Positions 16,300-51,947 of a stretch of 64,000 nt of DNA are shown piece by piece. The translations under genes were made by a program, and so were the position numbers. The notes beneath the pieces are model-generated. The model saw only the letters and a program-made list of their open reading frames with translations. It made no database searches and was not told the DNA's origin. The DNA comes from Odiellus spinosus. Taxonomy: Eukaryota; Arthropoda; Arachnida; Opiliones; Phalangiidae. The stretch is from assembly GCA_963920705.1 (NCBI GenBank), contig OY987232.1, positions 186,001-250,000 on the forward strand, written 5' to 3'. Within the stretch, counting starts at the first letter, position 1; every line of letters starts with the position of its first letter.

Positions 16300-18810
16300 C
16301 AAGTATAGATTCACAAATTTCCCAAGTATAGATCCATCAATTTCCCAAGTATAAATCCACCAATTTCCCAAGTATAGATCCACCAATTTCCCAAGTTTAG
16401 ATTCTCAAATTTCTCAAGTATAGATTCTCAAATTTCCCAAGTATAGATTCACAAATTTCCCAAGTATAGATTCTCAAATTTCCCAAGTATAAATTCACAA
16501 ATTTTCCAAGTATAGATTCACAAAATTCCCAAGCATAGATTCACAAATTTTCCAAGTATAGATACACAAAATTCCCAAGCATAGATTCACAAATTTCCCA
16601 AGTATAGATTCAAAATTTCCCAAGTATAGATTCACAAATTTACCATGTATAGATTCACAAATTTCCCAAGTATAGATTCACATATTTCAATAGTATAGAT
16701 TCAAAAATTTCCCAAGTATAGATTCACAAATTTCCCAAGTATAGATTCACAAATTTACCATGTATAGATTCACAAATTTCCCAAGTATAGATTCACATAT
16801 TTCGCAAGTATAGATTCACAAATTTCCCAAGTATAGATTCTCAAATTTCCCAAGTATGGATTCACAAATTTCCCAAGTATAGATCCACAAATTTCCAAAG
16901 TATAGATTCACAAATTTCCCAAGTATAGATTCACAAATTTCCCAAGTGTAGATTCACATATTTCCAAAGTATAGATTCACAAATTTCCCAAGTATAGATT
17001 CACAAATTTCCCAAGTATAGATCCATCAATTTCCCAAGTATAAATCCACCAATTTCCCAAGTATAGATCCACCAATTTCCCAAGTTTAGATTCACAAATT
17101 TGTCAAGTATAGATTCACAAATTTCCCAAGTATAGATTCACAAATTTCCCAAGTATAGATTCTCAAATTTCCCAAGTATAAATCCACCAATTTCCCAACT
17201 ATAGATCCACCAATTTCCCAAGTTTAGATTCACAAATTTCTCAAGTATAGATTCACAAATTTCCAAAGTATAGATTCACAAATTTCCCAAGTATAGATTC
17301 ACATATTTCAAAAGTATAGATTCAAAAATTTCCCAAGTATAGATTCACAAATTTCCCAAGTATAGATTCACAAATTTACCATGTATAGATTCACAAATTT
17401 CCCAAGTATAGATTCACAAATTTCCCAAGTATAGATCCATCAATTTCCCAAGTATAAATCCACCAATTTCCCAAGTATAGATCCACCAATTTCCCAAGTA
17501 TAGATTCACAAATTTACCATGTATAGATTCACAAAATTCCCAAGTATAGATTCACAAATTTCCCAAGTATAGATTCTCAAATTTCCCAAGTATAAATCCA
17601 CCAATTTCCCAAGTATAGATCCACCAATTTCCCAAGTATAGATCCACCAATTTCCCAAGTTTAGATTCACAAATTTCTCAAGTATAGATTCACAAATTTC
17701 CCAAGTATAGATTCACATATTTCCCAAGTATAGATTCACAAATTTCCCAAGTATAGATCCATCAATTTCCCAAGTATAAATCCACCAATTTCCCAAGTAT
17801 AGATCCACCAATTTCCCAAGTTTAGATTCTCAAATTTCTCAAGTATAGATTCTCAAATTTCCCAAGTATAGATTCACAAATTTCCCAAGTATAGCTTCTC
17901 AAATTTCCCAAGTATAAATTCACAAATTTTCCAAGTATAGATTCACAAAATTCCCAAGCATAGATTCACAAATTTTCCAAGTATAGATACACAAAATTCC
18001 CAAGCATAGATTCCTTAATTTCCCAAGTATAGATTCAAAATTTCCCAAGTATAGATTCACAAATTTACCATGTATAGATTCACAAATTTCCCAAGTATAG
18101 ATTCACATATTTCAATAGTATAGATTCAAAAATTTCACAAGTATAGATTCACAAATTTCCCAAGTATAGATTCACAAATTTACCATGTATAGATTCACAA
18201 ATTTCCCAAGTTAGATTCACATATTTCCCAAGTATAGATTCACAAATTTCCCAAGTATAGATTCACATATTTCACAAGTATAGATTCACAAATTTCCCAA
18301 GTATAGATTCACAAATTTACCATGTATAGATTCACAAATTTCACAAGTATAGATTCACATATTTCCCAAGTATAGATTCACAAATTTCCCAAGTATAGAT
18401 CCATCAATTTCCCAAGTATAAATCCACCAATTTCCCAAGTTTAGATTCTCAAATTTCTCAAGTATAGATTCACAAATTTCCCAAGTATAGATTCACAAAT
18501 TTCCCAAGTATAGATTCTCAAATTTCCCAAGTATAAATTCACAAATTTTCCAAGTATAGATTCACAAATTCCCAAGCATAGATTCACAAATTTCCCAAGT
18601 ATAGATTCAAAATTTCCCAAGTATAGATTCACATATTTACAATGTATAGATTCACATATTTCAAAAGTATAGATTCAAAAATTTCCCAAGTAGAGATTCA
18701 CAAATTTTACAAGAATAGATTCACAAATTTCCCAAGCATAGATTCACATATTTCCCAAGTATAGATTCACAAATTTCCCAAGTATAGATTCACAAATTTC
18801 CCAAGTATAG
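16300..18810 (+). repeat. Satellite stretch without a clear long-range period
   Basis: Ordinary F monomers. I could not assign a clean higher-order period by eye, although pieces resemble 11-12.7 kb and 15-16.3 kb (CAATAGTATAG and GATACACAAAATTCCC units). Local oddities are TTCGCAAGTATAG near 16,803, TTTGTCAAGTATAG near 17,100, GATTCCTTAATTTCC near 18,010 and a 22-bp unit CCCAAGTTAGATTC near 18,207. No non-satellite sequence was seen. Confidence 0.7.
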
Positions 18811-32925: not shown

Positions 32926-33793
32926 GTACATTCACAAATTTCCCAAGTATAGATTCACAAATTTACCAAGTATAAATTCACCAATTTCCCAAGTATAGAT
33001 CCACCAATTTCCCAAGTATAAATCCACCAATTTCCCAAGTATACATCCACTAATTTCCCAAGTTTAGATTCACAAATTTCTCAAGCATAGATTCTCAAAT
33101 TTCCCAAGTATAGATTCACAAATTTTCCAAGTATAGATTCACAAAATTCCCAAGCATAGATTCACAAATTTCCCAAGTATAGATTCAAAATTTCCCAAGT
33201 ATAGATTCACAAATTTACCATGTATAGATTCACAAATTTCCCAAGTATAGATTCACATATTTCAATAGTATAGATTCAAAAATTTCCCAAGTATAGATTC
33301 ACAAATTTCCCAAGTATAGATTCACAAATTTACCATGTATAGATTCACAAATTTCCCAAGTATAGATTCACATATTTCCCAAGTATAGATTCACAAATTT
33401 CCCAAGTATAGATTCACATATTTCACAAGTATAGATTCACAAATTTCCCAAGTATAGATTCACAAATTTACCATGTATAGATTCACAAATTTCACAAGTA
33501 TAGATTCACATATTTCCCAAGTATAGATTCACAAATTTCCCAAGTATAGATCCATCAATTTCCCAAGTATAAATCCACCAATTTCCCAAGTATAGATTCA
33601 CATACGTCCCAAGTATAGATTCACAAATTTCCCAAGTATAGATTCACAATTTTCCAAGTATAGATTCACAAATTTCCCAAGTATAGATTCACAAATTTCC
33701 CAAGTGTAGATTCACAAATTTCCCAAGTATAGATTCACAAATTTCCCAAGTATAGATTCACCAATTTCCCAAGTATAGATCCACCAATTTCCC

Positions 33794-33811
33794 AAGTATC
33801 ACCTATTTCCC
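33794..33811 (+). repeat. 18-bp truncated monomer (copy A)
   Basis: The unit GTATCACCTATTTCCCAA lacks five bases of the normal 23, where GTATAGATCCACC would stand. It is the shortest monomer I saw in the window and recurs in copy B at 36,245-36,262. Confidence 0.9.
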
Positions 33812-36244
33812 AAGTATAGATCTACCAATTTCCCAAGTTTAGATTCACAAATTTCTCAAGCATAGATTCACAAATTTCCCAAGTATAGATTCACAAATTT
33901 CCCAAGTATAGATTCTCAAATTTCCCAAGTATAGATTCACAAATTTTCCAAGTATAGATTCACAAAATACCCAAGCATAGATTCACAAATTTTCCAAGTA
34001 TAGATACAAAAAATTCCCAAGCATAGATTCACAAATTTCCCAAGTATAGATTCAAAATTTCCCAAGTATAGATTCACAAATTTACCATGTATAGATTCAC
34101 AAATTTTCCAAGTATAGATTCACATATTTCAATAGTATAGATTCAAAAATTTCCCAAGTATAGATTCACAAATTTCCCAAGTATAGATTCACAAATTTAC
34201 CATGTATAGATTCACATATTTCCCAAGTATAGATTCACAAATTTCCAAGTATAGATTCACAAATTTCCCAAGTATAGATTCACAAATTTCCCAAGTGTAG
34301 ATTCACAAATTTCCCAAGTATAGATTCACAAATTTCCCAAGTATAGATTCACAAATTTCCCAAGTATAGATTCACAAATTTCCCAAGTATAGATCCATCA
34401 ATTTCCCAAGTATAAATCCACCAATTTCCCAAGTATAGATCCACCAATTTCCCAAGTTTAGATTCACAAATTTCCAAGTATAGATTCACAAATTTCCCAA
34501 GTATAGATTCACAAATTTCCCAAGTATAGATTCACAAATTTCCCAAGTGTAGATTCACAAATTTCCCAAGTATAGATTCACAAATTTCCCAAGTATAGAT
34601 TCACCAATTTCCCAAGTATAGATCCACCAATTTCCCAAGTATAGATCCACCAATTTCCCAAGTTTAGATTCACAAATTTCTCAAGCATAGATTCACAAAT
34701 TTCCCAAGTATAGATTCACAAATTTCCCAAGTATAGATTCTCAAATTTCCCAAGTATAGATTCACAAATTTTCCAAGTATAGATTCACAAAATTCCCAAG
34801 CATAGATTCACAAATTTCCCAAGTATAGATTCACAAATTTCCAAAGTATAGATTCACAAATTTCCCAAGTATAGATTCACATATTTCAAAAGTATAGATT
34901 CAAAAATTTCACAAGTATAGATTCACAAATTTCCCAAGTATAGATTCATAAATTTCCAAAGTATAGATTCACAAATTTCCCAAGTGTAGATTCTCAAATT
35001 TTCCAAGTATAGATTCACAAATTTTCCAAGTATAGATTCACAAAATTCCCAAGCATAGATTCACAAATTTCCGAAGTATAGATTCACAAATTTCCAAAGT
35101 ATAGATTCACAAATTTCCCAAGTGTAGATTCACAAATTTCCCAAGTATAGATTCACAAATTTCCCAAGTATAGACTCACCAATTTCCCAAGTATAGATCC
35201 ACCAATTTCCCAAGTATAGATCCACCAATTTCCCAAGTATAGATCCACCAATTTCCCAAGTTTATATTCACAAATTTCTCAAGCATAGATTCACAAATTT
35301 CCCAAGTATAGATTCACAAATTTCCCAAGTGTACATTCACAAATTTCCCAAGTATAGATTCACAAATTTACCAAGTATAAATTCACCAATTTTCCAAGTA
35401 TAGATCCACCAATTTCCCAAGTATAAATCCACCAATTTCCCAAGTATACATCCACTAATTTCCCAAGTTTAGATTCACAAATTTCTCAAGCATAGATTCA
35501 CAAATTTCCCAAGTATAGATTCACAAATTTCCCAAGTATAGATTCTCAAATTTCCCAAGTATAGATTCACAAATTTTCCAAGTATAGATTCACAAAATTC
35601 CCAAGCATAGATTCACAAATTTCCCAAGTATAGATTCAAAATTTCCCAAGTATAGATTCACAAATTTACCATGTATAGATTCACAAATTTCCCAAGTATA
35701 GATTCACATATTTCAATAGTATAGATTCAAAAATTTCCCAAGTATAGATTCACAAATTTCCCAAGTATAGATTCACAAATTTACCATGTATAGATTCACA
35801 AATTTCCCAAGTATAGATTCACATATTTCCCAAGTATAGATTCACAAATTTCCCAAGTATAGATTCACATATTTCACAAGTATAGATTCACAAATTTCCC
35901 AAGTATAGATTCACAAATTTACCATGTATAGATTCACAAATTTCACAAGTATAGATTCACATATTTCCCAAGTATAGATTCACAAATTTCCCAAGTATAG
36001 ATCCATCAATTTCCCAAGTATAAATCCACCAATTTCCCAAGTATAGATTCACATACGTCCCAAGTATAGATTCACAAATTTCCCAAGTATAGATTCACAA
36101 TTTTCCAAGTATAGATTCACAAATTTCCCAAGTATAGATTCACAAATTTCCCAAGTGTAGATTCACAAATTTCCCAAGTATAGATTCACAAATTTCCCAA
36201 GTATAGATTCACCAATTTCCCAAGTATAGATCCACCAATTTCCC

Positions 36245-36262
36245 AAGTATCACCTATTTCCC
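36245..36262 (+). repeat. 18-bp truncated monomer (copy B)
   Basis: The same 18-bp unit as in copy A of the 2,451-bp duplication, followed by the same TAGATCTACC variant. It was inherited by duplication and did not arise twice. Confidence 0.9.
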
Positions 36263-37774
36263 AAGTATAGATCTACCAATTTCCCAAGTTTAGATTCACA
36301 AATTTCTCAAGCATAGATTCACAAATTTCCCAAGTATAGATTCACAAATTTCCCAAGTATAGATTCTCAAATTTCCCAAGTATAGATTCACAAATTTTCC
36401 AAGTATAGATTCACAAAATACCCAAGCATAGATTCACAAATTTTCCAAGTATAGATACAAAAAATTCCCAAGCATAGATTCACAAATTTCCCAAGTATAG
36501 ATTCAAAATTTCCCAAGTATAGATTCACAAATTTACCATGTATAGATTCACAAATTTTCCAAGTATAGATTCACATATTTCAATAGTATAGATTCAAAAA
36601 TTTCCCAAGTATAGATTCACAAATTTCCCAAGTATAGATTCACAAATTTACCATGTATAGATTCACATATTTCCCAAGTATAGATTCACAAATTTCCAAG
36701 TATAGATTCACAAATTTCCCAAGTATAGATTCACAAATTTCCCAAGTGTAGATTCACAAATTTCCCAAGTATAGATTCACAAATTTCCCAAGTATAGATT
36801 CACAAATTTCCCAAGTATAGATTCACAAATTTCCCAAGTATAGATCCATCAATTTCCCAAGTATAAATCCACCAATTTCCCAAGTATAGATCCACCAATT
36901 TCCCAAGTTTAGATTCACAAATTTCCAAGTATAGATTCACAAATTTCCCAAGTATAGATTCACAAATTTCCCAAGTATAGATTCACAAATTTCCCAAGTG
37001 TAGATTCACAAATTTCCCAAGTATAGATTCACAAATTTCCCAAGTATAGATTCACCAATTTCCCAAGTATAGATCCACCAATTTCCCAAGTATAGATCCA
37101 CCAATTTCCCAAGTTTAGATTCACAAATTTCTCAAGCATAGATTCACAAATTTCCCAAGTATAGATTCACAAATTTCCCAAGTATAGATTCTCAAATTTC
37201 CCAAGTATAGATTCACAAATTTTCCAAGTATAGATTCACAAAATTCCCAAGCATAGATTCACAAATTTCCCAAGTATAGATTCACAAATTTCCAAAGTAT
37301 AGATTCACAAATTTCCCAAGTATAGATTCACATATTTCAAAAGTATAGATTCAAAAATTTCACAAGTATAGATTCACAAATTTCCCAAGTATAGATTCAT
37401 AAATTTCCAAAGTATAGATTCACAAATTTCCCAAGTGTAGATTCTCAAATTTTCCAAGTATAGATTCACAAATTTTCCAAGTATAGATTCACAAAATTCC
37501 CAAGCATAGATTCACAAATTTCCGAAGTATAGATTCACAAATTTCCAAAGTATAGATTCACAAATTTCCCAAGTGTAGATTCACAAATTTCCCAAGTATA
37601 GATTCACAAATTTCCCAAGTATAGACTCACCAATTTCCCAAGTATAGATCCACCAATTTCCCAAGTATAGATCCACCAATTTCCCAAGTATAGATCCACC
37701 AATTTCCCAAGTTTATATTCACAAATTTCTCAAGCATAGATTCACAAATTTCCCAAGTATAGATTCACAAATTT

Positions 37775-40700
37775 CCCAAGTATAGATTCTCAAATTTCCC
37801 AAGTATAGATTCACAAATTTTCCAAGTATAGATTCACAAAATTCCCAAGCATAGATTCACAAATTTTCCAAGTATAGATACACAAAATTCCCAAGCATAG
37901 ATTCACAAATTTCCCAAGTATAGATTCAAAATTTCCAAGTATAGATTCACAAATTTACCATGTATAGATTCACAAATTTCCCAAGTATAGATTCACATAT
38001 TTCAATAGTATAGATTCACATATTTCCCAAGTATAGATTCAAAAATTTCCCAAGTATAGATTCACAAATTTCCCAAGTATAGATTCACAAATTTACCATG
38101 TATAGATTCACAAATTTCCCAAGTATAGATTCACATATTTCCCAAGTATAGATTCACAAATTTCCCAAGTATAGATTCACAAATTTACCATGTATAGATT
38201 CACAAATTTCCCAAGTATAGATTCACATATTTCCCAAGTATAGATCCATCAATTTCCCAAGTATAGATTCACAAATTTCGAAGTATAGATTCACAAATTT
38301 CCCAAGTATAGATTCACAAATTTCCCAAGTGTAGATTCACAAATTTCCCAAGTATAGATTCACAAATTTCCCAAGTATAGATTCACAAATTTCCCAAGTA
38401 TAGATTCACCAATTTCCCAAGTATAGATCCACCAATTTCCCAAGTATAGATCCACCAATTTCCCAAGTTTAGATTCACAAATTTCTCAAGCATAGATTCA
38501 CAAATTTCCCAAGTATAGATTCACAAATTTTCCAAGTATAGATTCACAAAATTCCCAACAATAGATTCACAAATTTTCCAAGTATAGATTCACAAAATTC
38601 CCAAGCATAGATTCACAAATTTCCCAAGTATAGATTCACATATTTCACAAGTATAGATTCACAAATTTCCCAAGTTTAGATTCACAAATTTCTCAAGCAT
38701 AGATTCACAAATTTCCCAAGTATAGATTCACAAATTTCCCAAGTATAGATTCTCAAATTTCCCAAGTATAGATTCACAAATTTTCCAAGTATAGATTCAC
38801 AAAATTCCCAAGCATAGATTCACAAATTTCCCAAGTATAGATTCACAAATTTCCAAAGTATAGATTCACAAATTTCCCAAGTATATATTCACATATTTAC
38901 AATGTATAGATTATCAAATTTCAAAAGTATAAATTCACAAATTTTCCAAGTAGAGATTCACAAATTTTACAAGAATAGATTCACAAATTTCCCAAGCATA
39001 GATTCACAAATTTCCCAAGTATAGATCCATCAATTTCCCAAGTATAGATTCACAAATTTCCAAGTATAGATTCACAAATTTCCCAAGTATAGATTCACAA
39101 ATTTCCAAAGTATAGATTCACAAATTTCCCAAGTGTAGATTCACAAATTTCCCAAGTATAGATTCACAAATTTCCCAAGTATAGATTCACCAATTTCCCA
39201 AGTATAGATCCACCAATTTCCCAAGTATACATCCACTAATTTCCCAAGTTTAGATTCACAAATTTCCCAAGTTTAGATTCACAAATTTCTCAAGCATAGA
39301 TTCACAAATTTCCCAAGTATAGATTCACAAATTTCCCAAGTATAGATTCTCAAATTTCCCAAGTATAGATTCACAAATTTTCCAAGTATAGATTCACAAA
39401 ATTCCCAAGCATAGATACACAAAATTCCCAAGCATAGATTCACAAATTTCCCAAGTATAGATTCAAAATTTCCCAAGTATAGATTCAAAATTTCCCAAGT
39501 ATAGATTCACAAATTTCCCAAGTATAGATTCACAAATTTCCCAAGTATAGATTCAAAAATTTCCCAAGTATAGATTCACAAATTTCCAGAGTATAGATTC
39601 ACAAATTTACCATGTATAGATTCACAAATTTACCATGTATAGATTCACAAATTTCCCAAGTATAGATTCACAAATTTCCCAAGCATAGATTCACATATTT
39701 CACAAGTATAGATTCACAAATTTCCCAAGTATAGATTCACAAATTTCCCAAGTATAGATCCATCAATTTCCCAAGTATAGATTCACAAATTTCCAAGTAT
39801 AGATTCACAAATTTCCCAAGTATAGATTCACAAATTTCCCAAGTGTAGATTCACAAATTTCCCAAGTATAGATTCACAAATTTCCCAAGTATAGATTCAC
39901 CAATTTCCCAAGTATAGATCCACCAATTTCCCAAGTATAGATTCACAAATTTCCCAAGTATAGATTCACAAATTTCCCAAGTATAGATTCACAAATTTAC
40001 CATGTATAGATTCACAAATTTCCCAAGTATAGATTCACATATTTCCCAAGTATAGATTCACAAATTTCCCAAGTATAGATTCACAAATTTACCATGTATA
40101 GATTCACATATTTCCCAAGTATAGATTCACAAATTTCCCAAGTATAGATCCATCAATTTCCTAAGTATAAATCCACCAATTTCCCAAGTATAGATCCACC
40201 AATTTCCCAAGTTTAGATTCACAAATTTCCAAGTATAGATTCACAAATTTCCCAAGTATAGATTCACAAATTTCCCAAGTGTAGATTCACAAATTTCCCA
40301 AGTATAGATTCACAAATTTTCCAAGTATAGATTCACCAATTTCCCAAGTATAGATCCACCAATTTCCCAAGTATAGATCCACCAATTTCCCAAGTTTAGG
40401 TTCACAAATTTCTCAAGCATAGATTCACAAATTTCCCAAGTATAGATTCACAAATTTCCAAGTATAGATTCACAAATTTCCCAAGTATAGATTCACAAAT
40501 TTTCCAAGTATAGATTCACAAAATTCCCAAGCATAGATTCACAAATTTTCCAAGTATAGATTCACAAAATTCCCAAGCATAGATTCACAAATTTCCCAAG
40601 TATAGATTCAAAATTTCCCAAGTATAGATTCACAAATTTACCATGTATAGATTCACAAATTTCCCAAGTATAGATTCACATATTTCAAAAGTATAGATTC

Positions 40701-41500: not shown

Positions 41501-42855
41501 GATTCACAAATTTCCCAAGTATAGATTCACAAATTTCCCAAGTATAGATTCTCAAATTTCCCAAGCATAGATTCACAAATTTTCCAAGTATAGATTCACA
41601 AAATTCTCAAGCATAGCTTCACAAATTTTCCAAGTATAGATACACAAAATTCCCAAGCATAGATTCACAAATTTCCCAAGTATAGATTCAAAATTTCCTA
41701 AGTATAGATTCACAAATTTACCATGTATAGATTCACAAATTTCCCAAGTATAGATTCACATATTTCAATGGTATAGATTCAAAAATTTCCCAAGTATAGA
41801 TTCACAAATTTCCCAAGTATAGATTCACAAATTTACCATGTATAGATTCACAAATTTCCCAAGTATAGATTCACATATTTCCCAAGTATAGATTCACAAA
41901 TTTCCCAAGTATAGATTCACATATTTCCCAAGTATAGATTCACAAATTTCCCAAGTATAGATCCATCAATTTCCCAAGTATAGATTCACAAATTTCCAAG
42001 TAGAGATTCACAAATTTCCCAAGTATAGATTCACAAATTTCCCAAGTGTAGGTTCACAAATTTCCCAAGTATAGATTCACAAATTTCCCAAGTATAGATT
42101 CACCAATTTCCCAAGTATAGATCCACCAATTTCCCAAGTATAGATTCACATATTTCCCAAGTATAGATTCACAAATTTCTCAAGCATAGATTCACAAATT
42201 TCCCAAGTATAGATTCACAAATTTCCCAAGTATAGATTCTCAAATTTCCCAAGTATAGATTCACAAATTTTCCAAGTATAGATTCACAAAATTCCCAACA
42301 ATAGATTCACAAATTTTCCAAGTATAGATTCACAAAATTCCCAAGCATAGATTCACAAATTTCCCAAGTATAGATTCACATATTTCACAAGTATAGATTC
42401 ACAAATTTCCCAAGTATAGATTCACAAATTTACCATGTATAGATTCACAAATTTCCCAAGTATATGTTCACATATTTCCCAAGTATAGATTCACAAATTT
42501 CCCAAGAATAGATCCATCAATTTCCCAAGTATAAATACACCAATTTCCCAAGTATAGATCCACAATTTCCCAAGTTTAGATTCACAAATTTCTCAAGTAT
42601 AGATTCACAAATTTCCCAAGTATAGATTCACAAATTTCCCAAGAATAGATTATCAAATTTCCCAAGTATAAATTCACAAATTTTCCAAGTATAGATTCAC
42701 AAATTTCCCAAGCATAGATTCACAAATTTCCCAAGTATAGATTCACATATTTCCCAAGTATAGATTCACAAATTTCCCAAGTATAGATCCATCAATTTCC
42801 CAAGTATAGATTCACAAATTTCCAAGTATAGATTCACAAATTTCCCAAGTGTAGA
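41500..42855 (+). repeat. Dispersed duplication, copy 1 (broken by inverted island)
   Basis: It matches about 49,500-50,849 in the same orientation. The offset is 8,017 for TTTCCTAAG (41,697 and 49,714), CAATGGTATAG (41,766 and 49,783), GTAGGTTC (42,048 and 50,065) and CCCAACAATAG (42,294 and 50,311). It becomes 7,994 for GATTATCAAATTT (42,648 and 50,642) and the final GTGTAG (42,849 and 50,843), a one-monomer net change. Copy 1 stops at the first orientation switch, whereas copy 2 reads through. Confidence 0.9.
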
Positions 42856-42892
42856 AATTGGTGAATCTATACTTGGGAAATTTGAGAATCTA
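42829..42892. other. F-to-R switch 1: hairpin at island left edge
   Basis: The F monomer matches through GTGTAGA (ending 42,855) and the R monomer matches from GAAATTGG (starting 42,854), so GA is shared. Arms 42,829-42,855 and 42,866-42,892 are complementary over 27 bp with two mismatches, around a 10-base loop (AATTGGTGAA). The short shared sequence and hairpin geometry fit a template switch or microhomology-mediated joining; that mechanism is inferred. Confidence 0.93.
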
Positions 42893-43514
42893 TACTTGGG
42901 AAATTTGTGAATCTATACTTGGGAAATTTGTGAATCTATGCTTGAGAAATTTGTGAATCTAAACTTGGGAAATTGGTGGATCTATACTTGGGAAATTGGT
43001 GGATCTATACTTGGGAAATTGGTGAATCTATACTTGGGAAATTTGTGAATCTATACTTGGGAAATTTGTGAATCTATACTTGGGAAATTTGTGAATCTAC
43101 ACTTGGGAAATTTGTGAATCTATACTTGGGAAATTTGTGAATCTATACTTGGAAATTCGTGAATCTATACTTGGGAAATTGATTGATCTATACTTGGGAA
43201 ATTTGTGAATCTATACTTGGGAAATATGTGAATCTATACTTGGGAAATTTGTGAATCTATGCTTGAGAAATTTGTGAATCTAAACTTGGGAAATTGGTGG
43301 ATCTATACTTGGGAAATTGGTGGATCTATACTTGGGAAATTGGTGAATCTATACTTGGGAAATTTGTGAATCTATACTTGGGAAATTTGTGAATCTATAC
43401 TTGGGAAATTTTTGAATCTATACTATTGAAATATGTGAATCTATACTTGGGAAATTTGTGAATCTATACATGGTAAATTTGTGAATCTATACTTGGGAAA
43501 TTTGGAATCTATAC
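42854..43514 (-). repeat. 661-bp inverted satellite island (R orientation)
   Basis: About 29 monomers on the opposite strand, embedded in the F array. Read as its reverse complement, the island aligns base for base with 45,728-46,388: paired coordinates always sum to 89,242, so there is no net indel. I saw three differences in 661 bp. They are AGATTCAC against AGACTCAC near 45,779, TTCCAAG against TTCCGAG near 46,091, and GATCCACC against GTTCCACC near 46,262. Rare shared markers include GATTCCAAATT, GATCAATCAA, CACGAATTTCC and CAATAGTATAG. It is an inverted duplicate, not an in-place inversion, because the forward copy is still present downstream. A second forward copy lies at about 48,527-49,187. 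Confidence 0.96.
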
Positions 43515-43537
43515 AAATTTCCCAAGTATAGATTCAC
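43481..43537. other. R-to-F switch 2: perfect 23-bp-arm hairpin
   Basis: R sequence runs to ATAC at 43,514 and F sequence restarts at ACAAATTT from 43,513, sharing AC. The arms 43,481-43,503 and 43,515-43,537 are exact reverse complements over one full monomer length, with an 11-base loop (GGAATCTATAC). Beyond the arms the two sides stay broadly complementary because both are satellite. Confidence 0.94.
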
Positions 43538-43668
43538 AAATTTCCCAAGTGTAGATTCACAAATTTCCCAAGTGTAGATTCACAAATTTCCCAAGTATAG
43601 ATTCACAAATTTCCCAAGTATAGATTCTCAAATTTCCCAAGTATAGATTCACAAATTTTCCAAGTATA

Positions 43669-43850
43669 GATTCACATATTTCCCAAGTATAGATTCACAA
43701 ATTTCCCAAGTATAGATCCATCAATTTCCCAAGTATAGATTCACAAATTTCCAAGTATAGATTCACATATTTCCCAAGTATAGATTCACAAATTTCCCAA
43801 GTATAGATCCATCAATTTCCCAAGTATAGATTCACAAATTTCCAAGTATA
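43669..43850 (+). repeat. 91-bp tandem duplication
   Basis: A four-monomer block (three of 23 bp and one of 22 bp) occurs twice, with GATCCATC at 43,715 and 43,806 and each copy containing CACATATTTCCC and the short CAAATTTCCAAG unit. It is the smallest clean multi-monomer duplication I noticed. Confidence 0.85.
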
Positions 43851-45299
43851 GATTCACAAATTTCCCAAGTATAGATTCACAAATTTCCCAAGTGTAGATT
43901 CACAAATTTCCCAAGTATAGATTCACAAATTTCCCAAGTATAGATTCTCAAATTTCCCAAGTATAGATTCACAAATTTTCCAAGTATAGATTCACAAAAT
44001 TCCCAAGCATAGATTCACAAATTTTCCAAGTATAGATTCACAAAATTCCCAAGCATAGATTCACAAATTTCCCAAGTATAGATTCAAAATTTCCCAAGTA
44101 TAGATTCACAAATTTACCATGTATAGATTCACAAATTTCCCAAGTATAGATTCACATATTTCAAAAGTATAGATTCACAAATTTCCCAAGTATAGATTCA
44201 CAAATTTACCATGTATAGATTCACAAATTTCCCAAGTATAGATTCACATATTTCCCAAGTATAGATTCACAAATTTCCCAAGTATAGATCCATCAATTTC
44301 CTAAGTATAAATCCACCAATTTCCCAAGTATAGATCCACCAATTTCCCAAGTTTAGATTCACAAATTTCCAAGTATAGATTCACAAATTTCCCAAGTATA
44401 GATTCACAAATTTCCCAAGTGTAGATTCACAAATTTCCCAAGTATAGATTCACAAATTTCCCAAGTATAGATTCACCAATTTCCCAAGTATAGATCCACC
44501 AATTTCCCAAGTTTAGGTTCACAAATTTCTCAAGCATAGATTCACAAATTTCCCAAGTATAGATTCACAAATTTCCCAAGTATAGATTCTCAAATTTCCC
44601 AAGTATAGATTCACAAATTTTCCAAGTATAGATTCACAAAATTCCCAAGCATAGATTCACAAATTTTCCAAGTATAGATTCACAAAATTCCCAAGCATAG
44701 ATTCACAAATTTCCCAAGTATAGACTCACAAATTTCCGAAGCATAGATTCACAAATTTACCATGTATAGATTCACAAATTTCCCAAGTATAGATTCACAA
44801 ATTTCCCAAGTATAGATTCACATATTTCCCAAGTATAGATTCACAAATTTCCCAAGTATAGATTCACAAATTTCCCAAGAATAGATTCACATATTTCAAA
44901 AGTACAGATTCAAAAATTTCCCAAGTATAGATTCACAAATTTCCCAAGTATAGATTCACAAATTTACCATGTATAGATTCACAAATTTCCCAAGTATAGA
45001 TTCACATATTTCCCAAGTATAGATTCACAAATTTCCAAAGTATAGATTCACAAATTTCCCAAGTATAGATTCACAAATTTACCATGTATAGATTCACAAA
45101 TTTACCAAGTATAGATTCACAAATTTCCCAAGTGTAGATTCACAAATTTCCCAAGTATAGATTCACAAATTTCCCAAGTATAGATTCACCAATTTCCCAA
45201 GTATAGATCAAACAATTTCCCAAGTATAGATCCACCAACTTCCCAACTTTAGATTCACAAATTTCCCAAGCATAAATTCACAAATTTCCCAAGTATAGA

Positions 45300-48200
45300 T
45301 CCATCAATTTCCCAAGTATAGATTCACAAATTTCCAAGTATAGATTCACAAATTTCCCAAGTATAGATTCACAAATTTCCCAAGTGTAGATTCACAAATT
45401 TCCCAAGTATAGATTCACAAATTTCCCAAGTATAGATTCACCAATTTCCCAAGTATAGATCCACCAATTTCCCAAGTATAGATCCACCAATTTCCCAAGT
45501 ATAGATCCACCAATTTCCCAAGTTTAGATTCACAAATTTCTCAAGCATAGATTCACAAATTTCCAAGTATAGATTCACAAATTTCCCAAGTATAGATTCT
45601 CAAATTTCCCAAGTATAGATTCACAAATTTTCCAAGTATAGATTCACAAAATTCCCAAGCATAGCTTCACAAATTTTCCAAGTATAGATACACAAAATTC
45701 CCAAGCATAGATTCACAAATTTCCCAAGTATAGATTCCAAATTTCCCAAGTATAGATTCACAAATTTACCATGTATAGACTCACAAATTTCCCAAGTATA
45801 GATTCACATATTTCAATAGTATAGATTCAAAAATTTCCCAAGTATAGATTCACAAATTTCCCAAGTATAGATTCACAAATTTCCCAAGTATAGATTCACC
45901 AATTTCCCAAGTATAGATCCACCAATTTCCCAAGTATAGATCCACCAATTTCCCAAGTTTAGATTCACAAATTTCTCAAGCATAGATTCACAAATTTCCC
46001 AAGTATAGATTCACATATTTCCCAAGTATAGATTCACAAATTTCCCAAGTATAGATCAATCAATTTCCCAAGTATAGATTCACGAATTTCCGAGTATAGA
46101 TTCACAAATTTCCCAAGTATAGATTCACAAATTTCCCAAGTGTAGATTCACAAATTTCCCAAGTATAGATTCACAAATTTCCCAAGTATAGATTCACAAA
46201 TTTCCCAAGTATAGATTCACCAATTTCCCAAGTATAGATCCACCAATTTCCCAAGTATAGTTCCACCAATTTCCCAAGTTTAGATTCACAAATTTCTCAA
46301 GCATAGATTCACAAATTTCCCAAGTATAGATTCACAAATTTCCCAAGTATAGATTCTCAAATTTCCCAAGTATAGATTCACCAATTTCCCAAGTATAGAT
46401 CCACCAATTTCCCAAGTATAGATTCACCAATTTCCCAAGTTTAGGTTCACAAATTTCTGAAGCATAGATTCACAAATTTCCCAAGTATAGATTCACAAAT
46501 TTCCCAAGTATAGATTCTCAAATTTCCCAAGTATAGATTCACAAATTTTCCAAGTATAGATTCACAAAATTCCCAAGCATAGATTCACAAATTTTCCAAG
46601 TATAGATTCACAAAATTCCCAAGCATAGATTCACAAATTTCCCAAGTATAGATTCAAAATTTCCCAAGTATAGATTCACAAATTTACCATGTATAGATTC
46701 ACAAATTTCCCAAGTATAGATTCACATATTTCCCAAGTTTAGATTCACAAATTTCTCAAGCATAGATTCACAAATTTCTCAAGTATAGATTCACAAATTT
46801 CCCAAGTATAGATTCTCAAATTTCCCAAGTATAGATTCACAAATTTTCCAAGTATAGATACACAAAATTCCCAAGCATAGATTCACAAATTTCCCAAGTA
46901 TAGATTCAAAATTTCCTAAGTAAAGATTCACAAATTTACCATGTATAGATTCACAAATTTCCCAAGTATAGATTCACATATTTCAATGGTATAGATTCAA
47001 AAATTTCCCAAGTATAGATTCACAAATTTCCCAAGTATAGATTCACAAATTTACCATGTATAGATTCACAAATTTCCCAAGTATAGATTCACAAATTTCC
47101 CAAGTATAGATTCACAAATTTCCCAAGTATAGATTCACCAATTTCCCAAGTATAGATCCACCAATTTCCCAAGTATAGATCCACCAATTTCCCAAGTATA
47201 GATCCACCAATTTCCCAAGTTTAGATTCACAAATTTCTCAAGCATAGATTCACAAATTTCCCAAGTATAGATTCACAAATTTCCCAAGTATAGATTCTCA
47301 AATTTCCCAAGTATAGATTCACAAATTTTCCAAGTATAGATTCACAAAATTCCCAAGCATAGCTTCACAAATTTTCCAAGTATAGATACACAAAATTCCC
47401 AAGCATAGATTCACAAATTTCCCAAGTATAGATTCCAAATTTCCCAAGTATAGATTCACAAATTTACCATGTATAGACTCACAAATTTCCCAAGTATAGA
47501 TTCACATATTTCAATAGTATAGATTCAAAAATTTCCCAAGTATAGATTCACAAATTTCCCAAGTATAGATTCACAAATTTCCCAAGTATAGATTCACCAA
47601 TTTCCCAAGTATAGATCCACCAATTTCCCAAGTATAGATCCACCAATTTCCCAAGTTTAGATTCACAAATTTCTCAAGCATAGATTCACAAATTTCCCAA
47701 GTATAGATTCACATATTTCCCAAGTATAGATTCACAAATTTCCCAAGTATAGATCAATCAATTTCCCAAGTATAGATTCACGAATTTCCGAGTATAGATT
47801 CACAAATTTCCCAAGTATAGATTCACAAATTTCCCAAGTGTAGATTCACAAATTTCTCAAGCATAGATTCACAAATTTCCCAAGTATAGATTCACAAATT
47901 TCCCAAGTATAGATTCTCAAATTTCCCAAGTATAGATTCACAAATTTTCCAAGTATAGATACACAAAATTCCCAAGCATAGATTCACAAATTTCCCAAGT
48001 ATAGATTCAAAATTTCCTAAGTAAAGATTCACAAATTTACCATGTATAGATTCACAAATTTCCCAAGTATAGATTCACATATTTCAATGGTATAGATTCA
48101 AAAATTTCCCAAGTATAGATTCACAAATTTCCCAAGTATAGATTCACAAATTTACCATGTATAGATTCACAAATTTCCCAAGTATAGATTCACAAATTTC

Positions 48201-49740
48201 CCAAGTATAGATTCACAAATTTCCCAAGTATAGATTCACCAATTTCCCAAGTATAGATCCACCAATTTCCCAAGTATAGATCCACCAATTTCCCAAGTAT
48301 AGATCCACCAATTTCCCAAGTTTAGATTCACAAATTTCTCAAGCATAGATTCACAAATTTCCCAAGTATAGATTCACAAATTTCCCAAGTATAGATTCTC
48401 AAATTTCCCAAGTATAGATTCACAAATTTTCCAAGTATAGATTCACAAAATTCCCAAGCATAGCTTCACAAATTTTCCAAGTATAGATACACAAAATTCC
48501 CAAGCATAGATTCACAAATTTCCCAAGTATAGATTCCAAATTTCCCAAGTATAGATTCACAAATTTACCATGTATAGACTCACAAATTTCCCAAGTATAG
48601 ATTCACATATTTCAATAGTATAGATTCAAAAATTTCCCAAGTATAGATTCACAAATTTCCCAAGTATAGATTCACAAATTTCCCAAGTATAGATTCACCA
48701 ATTTCCCAAGTATAGATCCACCAATTTCCCAAGTATAGATCCACCAATTTCCCAAGTTTAGATTCACAAATTTCTCAAGCATAGATTCACAAATTTCCCA
48801 AGTATAGATTCACATATTTCCCAAGTATAGATTCACAAATTTCCCAAGTATAGATCAATCAATTTCCCAAGTATAGATTCACGAATTTCCGAGTATAGAT
48901 TCACAAATTTCCCAAGTATAGATTCACAAATTTCCCAAGTGTAGATTCACAAATTTCCCAAGTATAGATTCACAAATTTCCCAAGTATAGATTCACAAAT
49001 TTCCCAAGTATAGATTCACCAATTTCCCAAGTATAGATCCACCAATTTCCCAAGTATAGTTCCACCAATTTCCCAAGTTTAGATTCACAAATTTCTCAAG
49101 CATAGATTCACAAATTTCCCAAGTATAGATTCACAAATTTCCCAAGTATAGATTCTCAAATTTCCCAAGTATAGATTCACCAATTTCCCAAGTATAGATC
49201 CACCAATTTCCCAAGTATAGATTCACCAATTTCCCAAGTTTAGGTTCACAAATTTCTGAAGCATAGATTCACAAATTTCCCAAGTATAGATTCACAAATT
49301 TCCCAAGTATAGATTCTCAAATTTCCCAAGTATAGATTCACAAATTTTCCAAGTATAGATTCACAAAATTCCCAAGCATAGATTCACAAATTTTCCAAGT
49401 ATAGATTCACAAAATTCCCAAGCATAGATTCACAAATTTCCCAAGTATAGATTCAAAATTTCCCAAGTATAGATTCACAAATTTACCATGTATAGATTCA
49501 CAAATTTCCCAAGTATAGATTCACATATTTCCCAAGTTTAGATTCACAAATTTCTCAAGCATAGATTCACAAATTTCCCAAGTATAGATTCACAAATTTC
49601 CCAAGTATAGATTCTCAAATTTCCCAAGTATAGATTCACAAATTTTCCAAGTATAGATACACAAAATTCCCAAGCATAGATTCACAAATTTCCCAAGTAT
49701 AGATTCAAAATTTCCTAAGTAAAGATTCACAAATTTACCA
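45300..49740 (+). repeat. Overlapping 1,698-, 1,101- and 2,799-bp duplications
   Basis: Marker positions show a compound duplication. CATAGCTTCAC lies near 45,660, 47,358 and 48,459. GATCAATCAA lies at 46,054, 47,752 and 48,853 (steps 1,698 then 1,101). CCTAAGTAAAG lies at 46,915, 48,016 and 49,714 (steps 1,101 then 1,698). TTAGGTTCAC followed by TTCTGAAGC lies at 46,441 and 49,240 (2,799, the sum of the two steps). The block carries the forward counterpart of the inverted island at 45,728-46,388, a full second copy at about 48,527-49,187 and a partial one from 47,426. Confidence 0.91.
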
Positions 49741-50849
49741 TGTATAGATTCACAAATTTCCCAAGTATAGATTCACATATTTCAATGGTATAGATTCAAA
49801 AATTTCCCAAGTATAGATTCACAAATTTCCCAAGTATAGATTCACAAATTTACCATGTATAGATTCACAAATTTCCCAAGTATAGATTCACATATTTCCC
49901 AAGTATAGATTCACAAATTTCCCAAGTATAGATTCACATATTTCCCAAGTATAGATTCACAAATTTCCCAAGTATAGATCCATCAATTTCCCAAGTATAG
50001 ATTCACAAATTTCCAAGTAGAGATTCACAAATTTCCCAAGTATAGATTCACAAATTTCCCAAGTGTAGGTTCACAAATTTCCCAAGTATAGATTCACAAA
50101 TTTCCCAAGTATAGATTCACCAATTTCCCAAGTATAGATCCACCAATTTCCCAAGTATAGATCCACCAATTTCCCAAGTTTAGATTCACAAATTTCTCAA
50201 GCATAGATTCACAAATTTCCCAAGTATAGATTCACAAATTTCCCAAGTATAGATTCTCAAATTTCCCAAGTATAGATTCACAAATTTTCCAAGTATAGAT
50301 TCACAAAATTCCCAACAATAGATTCACAAATTTTCCAAGTATAGATTCACAAAATTCCCAAGCATAGATTCACAAATTTCCCAAGTATAGATTCACATAT
50401 TTCACAAGTATAGATTCACAAATTTCCCAAGTATAGATTCACATATTTCCCAAGTATAGATTCACAAATTTCCCAAGAATAGATCCATCAATTTCCCAAG
50501 TATAAATACACCAATTTCTCAAGTATAAATACACCAATTTCCCAAGTATAGATCCACAATTTCCCAAGTTTAGATTCACAAATTTCTCAAGTATAGATTC
50601 ACAAATTTCCCAAGTATAGATTCACAAATTTCCCAAGAATAGATTATCAAATTTCCCAAGTATAAATTCACAAATTTTCCAAGTATAGATTCACAAATTT
50701 CCCAAGCATAGATTCACAAATTTCCCAAGTATAGATTCACATATTTCCCAAGTATAGATTCACAAATTTCCCAAGTATAGATCCATCAATTTCCCAAGTA
50801 TAGATTCACAAATTTCCAAGTATAGATTCACAAATTTCCCAAGTGTAGA
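49500..50849 (+). repeat. Dispersed duplication, copy 2 (unbroken)
   Basis: The partner of 41,500-42,855. It carries two consecutive ATAAATACACC units (50,502 and 50,525) where copy 1 has one, and lacks a TTTACCATG unit present in copy 1. After its GTGTAG at 50,843 the F array continues with a second GTGTAG unit and ordinary monomers. It therefore shows what the site at 42,85x may have looked like before the inverted island arrived. Confidence 0.88.
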
Positions 50850-51910
50850 TTCACAAATTTCCCAAGTGTAGATTCACAAATTTCCCAAGTATAGATTCAC
50901 AAATTTCCCAAGTATAGATTAACCAATTTCCCAAGTATAGATCCACCAATTTCCCAAGTATAGATCCACCAATTTCCCAAGTATAGATCCACCAATTTCC
51001 CAGGTTTAGATTCACAAATTTCTCAAGCATAGATTCACAAATTTCCCAAGTATAGATTCACAAATTTCCCAAGTATAGATTCTCAAATTTCCCATGTATA
51101 GATTCACAAATTTTCCAAGTATAGATTCACAAAATTCCCAAGCATAGATTCACAAATTTTCCAAGTATAGATACACAAAATTCCCAAGCATAGATTCACA
51201 AATTTCCCAAGTATAGATTCAAAATTTCCCAAGTATAGATTCACAAATTTACCATGTATAGATTCACAAATTTCCCAAGTATAGATTCACATATTTCAAT
51301 AGTATAGATTCAAAAATTTCCCAAGTATTGATTCACAAATTTCCCAAGTATAGATTCACAAATTTTCTATGTATAGATTCACAAATTTCCCAAGTATAGA
51401 TTCACATATTTCCCAAGTATAGATTCACAAGTTTCCCAAGTATAGATTAACATATTTTCCAAGTATAGATTCACAAAATTCCCAAGCATAGATTCACAAA
51501 TTTCCCAAGTATAGATTCAAAATTTCCCAAGTATAGATTCACAAATTTACCATGTATAGATTCACAAATTTCCCAAGTATAGATTCACATATTTCAAAAG
51601 TATAGATTCAAAAATTTCCCAAGTAGAGATTCACAAATTTTCCAAGTATAGGTTCACAAATTTCCCAAGCATAGATTCACAAATTTCCCAAGTATAGATT
51701 CACATATTTCCCAAGTATAGATTCACAAATTTCCCAAGTATAGAACAATCAATTTCCCAAGTATAGATCCACCAATTTCCCAAGTTTAGATTCACAAATT
51801 TCTCAAGTATAGATTCACAAATTTCCCAAGTGTAGATTCACAAATTTCCCAAGTATAGATTCACAAATTTCCAAAGTATAGATTCACAAATTTCAGAAGT
51901 ATAGATTCAC
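50849..51910 (+). repeat. F satellite, last stretch before the main switch
   Basis: Plain F monomers with scattered private variants: GATTAACC near 50,930, CCCAGGTTTAG near 51,001, AAGTATTGATTC near 51,326, TTTTCTATG near 51,363, GATTAACATATTTTCC near 51,447 and TAGAACAATCAATT near 51,743. These one-off changes suggest less homogenisation near the switch. No non-satellite sequence was seen. Confidence 0.75.
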
Positions 51911-51947
51911 TTTTGAAATATGTGAATCTATACTTGGGAAATTTGTG
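51885..51947. other. F-to-R switch 3: hairpin at main polarity change
   Basis: F sequence ends at GATTCAC (51,910) and R sequence begins with ACTTTTGAAATATGTG (51,909), sharing AC. The arms 51,885-51,910 and 51,922-51,947 are complementary over 26 bp with two adjacent mismatches (AG against CC) and an 11-base loop (TTTTGAAATAT). From here the array stays R to the window end. The variants next to the switch are not mirrored: the left side has CCAAAG and CAGAAG units where the right side has TTTACCATG-type and CTTTTGAATTTT units. Confidence 0.94.

Follow-up and report, generated by a model that had tools for sequence, protein, structure and literature searches.

How does a short piece of a satellite array come to lie in the opposite orientation to its surroundings, and when, relative to the changes around it, did this happen? 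The past of a satellite array tends to be lost from its sequence, and the origin of the strand switches within such arrays is mostly inferred. In the array described here the copied source, an uninterrupted paralogue of the target, private junctions and an order of mutation and duplication all appear to survive within about 8 kb. The stretch that was analysed (the window, 64,000 bp, C8:186,001-250,000) belongs to an assembly of 443,074,358 bases in 286 contigs. Positions are those of the window unless a contig is named.

The inverted island and its forward copies

The window consists from end to end of a 23-bp satellite (unit TAGATTCACAAATTTCCCAAGTA), which runs on the + strand up to approximately 51.9 kb and on the - strand beyond that point, except for the island. 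Contig C8 begins within the satellite and, among the matches listed in an exact-pattern search, its patterns are also present on C11, C12 and C90. A literature search for a 23-bp satellite yielded no related paper by title. Two other observations concern the array itself. An exact direct repeat of 2,244 bp (33,087-35,330 and 35,538-37,781, offset 2,451), the longest found within the window, is a recent segmental duplication inside the array. At C8:144,260-144,490 the array contains approximately 230 bp that are not satellite and bear terminal inverted repeats, a sequence which we take to resemble a small non-autonomous DNA transposon.

The island (42,854-43,514, - strand) comprises 661 bp of the 23-bp satellite, its units being oriented opposite to those around it. 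Its reverse complement aligns to 45,728-46,388 on the + strand with three substitutions and no indel, and the paired coordinates sum to 89,242. All these particulars, first given by a sequence-only reading of the window, proved exact, and the 661-bp inverted copy is thereby confirmed. Past both ends the identity is lost abruptly. The differing sites (forward base first, then the island base in the sense of the array) are 45,780 (C/T), 46,092 (G/A) and 46,261 (T/A). The forward counterpart, which would be the descendant of the probable template, has an identical second copy at an offset of 2,799 bp (48,527-49,187, + strand). A third, partial counterpart on the + strand (47,426-48,085) is identical to the forward copies over its first 431 bp and then diverges; it carries two of the three altered states.

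The sequence-only reading had also placed four rare markers in the shared piece, and this piece indeed contains four clusters of 15-mers with few occurrences in C8:1-260,000. A private 23-base marker, CACGAATTTCCRAGTATAGATTC, occurs at four sites genome-wide, namely in the island and the three forward copies, all within 6 kb. A second marker has six sites genome-wide, four of which are again the island and the forward copies, and the other two align to the island at just 88% and 90%.

Candidate sources were ranked by genome-wide exact patterns, together with a gapped comparison in C8:1-260,000. No match comparable at full length was found in that gapped ranking or among the genome-wide marker patterns. 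Among the best 25 gapped matches, the next are the partial copy at 47,426-48,085 (96.4%, 23 mismatches and one gap) and 37,918-38,576 (95.6%), the remaining ones being lower; ungapped, the next match within the window has 39 mismatches. The + strand copy at 38,281-38,530 matches 42,901-43,150 of the island exactly (250 bp), a part in which the source at 45,728 has one mismatch, and across the full 661 bp the 37.9-kb copy is far worse than that source. A word-based DNA search, which skips common words, scored 6 of 1,510 candidates (best 94%) and missed the window's own copies, so that its list is no ranking.

Chance similarity was rejected as an explanation. Besides the much weaker next matches, only 4 of 108 opposite-strand pieces of 330 bp have a match on the + strand with at most two mismatches (ungapped), the median piece having 16. 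Two of these four pieces derive from the island and two from an 897-bp inverted match described below. A mobile element was likewise rejected, the island consisting throughout of satellite units equal to array sequence with nothing foreign in it. A known structured RNA was rejected as its identity as well, since Rfam at the gathering threshold matched no structured RNA in the window.

Relative order of the changes

For each differing site the two states were counted in C8:1-260,000 on both strands, with the island and the forward copies included. The 23-mer with the island state outnumbers that with the forward state by 416 to 3 at 45,780 and by 516 to 4 at 46,261. At 46,092 the 23-mer includes the private marker and gives 1 to 3, and a 15-mer gives 232 to 3. 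In line with the sequence-only reading, the island holds the common state in C8:1-260,000 at all three sites, and both full forward copies share the rarer one. The pattern CACGAATTTCC(A/G)AGTATAGATTC has four occurrences genome-wide, the island alone having A and the three forward copies G. For the altered 23-mer of 45,780 there are 23 further, distant occurrences (on C8 beyond 1.4 Mb, and on C90), and that of 46,261 is found in two more places in C8:1-260,000 (C8:28,557 and 31,517). These two altered states can therefore recur or be transferred, which the state at 46,092 does less easily because its marker is private.

The tandem copies at an offset of 2,799 bp differ at 2 of 1,576 positions (45,563-47,138) versus 3 of 661 for the island, in agreement with the island having come first. 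The start of the copy at 47,426 falls in an exact tract of 596 bp that it has in common with the first forward copy. Most simply, the changes at 45,780 and 46,092 would have occurred after the split from the island and before the local tandem amplification. The relative order of island, changes in the source and 2,799-bp tandem duplication is thus well supported by the three sites, on the assumption that the template belonged to the forward lineage and not to another haplotype or a lost copy. Of the earlier claim that the event is dated directly, the readable relative order stands; it amounts to no date, and inverted copying is not unique in the array.

A different order, which we consider rather unlikely, would have the island copied after the tandem duplication, with the common bases regained by gene conversion, or copied from a template on another haplotype that lacked the changes. 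In favour of such a course, patchwork differences are frequent across the array, and two of the altered states are found again elsewhere. Gene conversion would, however, have to act three times. Moreover, the common base at 46,092 lies only 8 bases from the private marker that the island has retained, so that the conversion tract must end inside those bases. Both objections concern gene conversion and do not bear on the haplotype version. This alternative concerns the timing and is compatible with each of the mechanisms considered below.

Junctions, target site and origin of the island

At the left junction (42,854-42,855, + strand) the left flank and the source of the island overlap by the 2 bp GA, and at the right junction (43,513-43,514, + strand) the source and the right flank overlap by AC, both as determined by eye. 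In a repeat, overlaps of 2 bp are too short to exceed chance clearly, and they are weak evidence. Each junction word, a 19-mer on the left and a 20-mer on the right, is single-copy genome-wide.

The left flank points to a paralogue of the target site. Its 330 bp (42,526-42,855, + strand) are identical to 50,520-50,849, and it is precisely at the island junction that this identity breaks off; the next best match of 300 bp of this flank in the window is 96.3%. Farther to the left, identical blocks of 263 and 440 bp occur at the offset of 8,017, with diverged patches in between. The paralogue (50,520-50,916, + strand) is uninterrupted and runs past 50,849 with a GTGTAGA doublet that is also present to the right of the island. 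In the window this doublet is found only at 50,843 and 43,549. Genome-wide it occurs 266 times; on the + strand of C8:1-260,000 11 occurrences fall within the initial 24 kb, and these two are the only others. The right flank (43,515-43,622, + strand) is homologous to the paralogue, at 99.1% over 110 columns with 43,513 against 50,807. Over 300 columns the identity is 92%, which is inside the background. Since the right flank diverges after approximately 110 bp, the paralogue does not represent a clean empty allele. When the flanks were spliced and compared with the window, the best match (93.4%) was at the 50.8-kb paralogue itself and no clean empty site was found.

In its initial 41 bp the right flank repeats the 40 bp with which the left flank ends, and the one additional C argues against a simple target duplication. 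Two readings of the target site fit: the strand may have re-entered its template approximately 40 bp behind its exit, or 3 bp may have been lost at insertion, in which case the target site would have had two units more than the paralogue.

The direction of copying, from the forward sequence to the island, would follow from the left edge of the source. The 400 bp to the left of 45,728 match 37,516-37,917 at 98.5%, and the homologue of the island begins there at 37,918. This continuity with the homologue at 37.5-38.6 kb means that the forward arrangement exists outside these copies too. The + run from 43,506 to 51,879, with the forward copies inside it, has no break in orientation, which indicates that the template was retained in place. 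The partial copy at 47,426, the paralogue at 50,849, the 2-bp junction overlaps and flanks that resemble the background are newly recognised here.

A copy is present, its source stayed, and the flanks of the source were left behind, a combination by which inverted templated insertions are recognised. Template switching, of the classes known as MMBIR and FoSTeS, is the usual explanation for such insertions. It appears probable that the island originated in this way. While the satellite was being replicated or a break in it repaired, the nascent strand would have left its template at the present position 42,855 and switched to the opposite strand of a neighbour a few kb farther right in the array. 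About 657-661 bases would have been copied backwards from this neighbouring stretch, and the strand would have returned to within approximately 40 bases, or two repeat units, of its departure, with an overlap of about 2 bases at each switch. Afterwards the source would have gained three substitutions, and would then have been amplified in tandem at offsets of 1,101, 1,698 and 2,799 bp. The observed inverted copy, private junction words, background-like flanks, uninterrupted paralogue and rare forward states provide the material for this reading. From them we infer that the island was synthesised by template switching (MMBIR/FoSTeS-like, or synthesis-dependent repair) rather than joined in as a loose fragment. 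We propose no selected function for it.

The same junctions have to be weighed for non-replicative repair, in which a loose double-stranded fragment, or an extrachromosomal piece of the array, would have been inserted backwards into a break by ligation. Extrachromosomal DNA can be released from satellite arrays, and the short junction overlaps are equally compatible with end joining. Nevertheless, the source locus retained its copy, so that the fragment would have to come from an additional copy. We regard this origin as unlikely, even though the sequence features do not appear to separate fragment ligation clearly from template switching.

An inversion in place, in which two breaks would have flipped a forward tandem duplicate of the source situated at 42.9 kb, would yield identical inverted sequence. 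Near-identical direct duplicates are moreover very common in the array: 113 of 170 sampled 330-bp segments of the + strand have one with at most two mismatches (ungapped). The flanks argue against it. Over 300 bp, those of the island and the source are alike at 0.889 on the left and 0.926 on the right, compared with a background median of 0.893 and a 95th percentile of 0.95, and as they are no more alike than the background, the ends of the duplicate would have to coincide with those of the inversion. The paralogous site at 50,849, furthermore, is without a forward copy at the junction, and altogether we consider such an inversion quite improbable. An assembly artefact, whether from a chimeric or fold-back read or from a mis-join among near-identical repeats, is very improbable: the region is a highly repetitive array known from the assembly alone, but a fold-back molecule would equal and adjoin its source, whereas the island has three differences and lies 2.2 kb away, and the A beside the private marker is unique in the assembly, so that no other assembled copy can simply have supplied the island.

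Returning to template switching, the available part of a study of MMBIR-mediated templated insertions (MMB-TIs) describes insertions copied in inverted orientation from templates close by and bordered by microhomology, the insertions measuring from 10 bp up to the read length and the templates being sought within 100 bp (PMC8421209). As far as that description goes, the island resembles them in being copied backwards from a template close by, with putative short microhomology at the junctions and a probable return near the origin. It differs in being longer (661 bp), in having a more distant template (2.2 kb, versus the 100 bp within which theirs were sought) and in having donor and recipient in one satellite array (PMC8421209).

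Strand switches elsewhere in the array

The inverted copying is not an isolated event. Opposite-strand segments, which the sequence-only reading had not noticed, occur elsewhere in the array. In C8:1-260,000 there are nine strand switches, the two of the island included. The orientation changes from + to - near C8:87,000, 91,900, 105,345, 228,854 (island) and 237,905 (51.9 kb in the window), and from - to + near C8:90,790, 97,480, 109,735 and 229,514 (island).

The switch at 51.9 kb (51,898-51,928, across the change of strand) is separate from the island. Its 31-base + to - junction is common to C8:91,891 and C8:105,339, and as an exact match this word has exactly three occurrences genome-wide. 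A 30-base - to + junction word with one variable base likewise has three exact occurrences genome-wide (C8:90,780, 97,469 and 109,723). Flanks anchored at these junctions were compared, as BLAST of 1 kb beside the switches gave mostly undiscriminating matches of 87-94%. The sequences to the right of the 91,900 and 105,345 junctions agree at 99% over 400 bp, those to the left of 97,480 and 109,735 at 98.8% over 800 bp, and those to the right of 90,790 and 109,735 at 96.5% over 400 bp, with a background median of 0.89 and a 95th percentile of 0.918 (400 bp) or 0.91 (800 bp). Most other anchored comparisons of 400-800 bp lie within or near the background. The high identities indicate that some opposite-strand blocks were multiplied along with their junctions, whereas the island is single. 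Like the six switches with recurrent junctions, the island lies in the same satellite and has short overlaps (by eye) between + and - units; unlike them, it has single junction words and a recognisable source, whereas their words recur three times each.

These observations suggest a further possibility, which we put forward tentatively and regard as doubtful: small inverted template-switch islands, each arising once with private junctions, may seed the alternating-strand architecture, tandem duplication and unequal exchange then spreading both junctions into larger blocks. If true, such seeding would explain the opposite-strand blocks with two recurrent junctions that are seen six times in C8:1-260,000. 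The survival of the source, the target paralogue, the private junctions and the order of changes, in an array that has recurrent, duplicated switches too, makes satellite template switching testable by comparison of haplotypes.

In the available part of a study of human alpha-satellite HOR units, few inversions are described inside them (PMC9859433). The island resembles known arrays with inverted runs of monomers in that monomers of opposite orientation lie in a homogeneous array. It differs from them in that the source, the target paralogue and the order of later changes can still be read, and in the further switches of the surrounding array on C8. A limited literature search found no announcement of an inverted templated insertion in a satellite with both its source and the order of changes. 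The type of event is already known, and the island is a clear case of it rather than a new phenomenon; what is unusually clear is the preserved order of the steps.

Another inverted match in the array is exact over 897 bp, between 16,805-17,701 of the window (in a + block) and C8:254,354-255,250 (in a - block). It is longer and cleaner than that of the island, and the local orientation is kept on both sides, so that it is an inverted transfer preserving local orientation. Finally, outside the satellite, a COX1 match on the 16-kb contig C286 has an open frame under the invertebrate mitochondrial code and is probably that of an arthropod. Stretches resembling COX1 with in-frame TGA and TAG occur at several places on the 13.7-Mb contig C17; these are probably nuclear copies of mitochondrial DNA.
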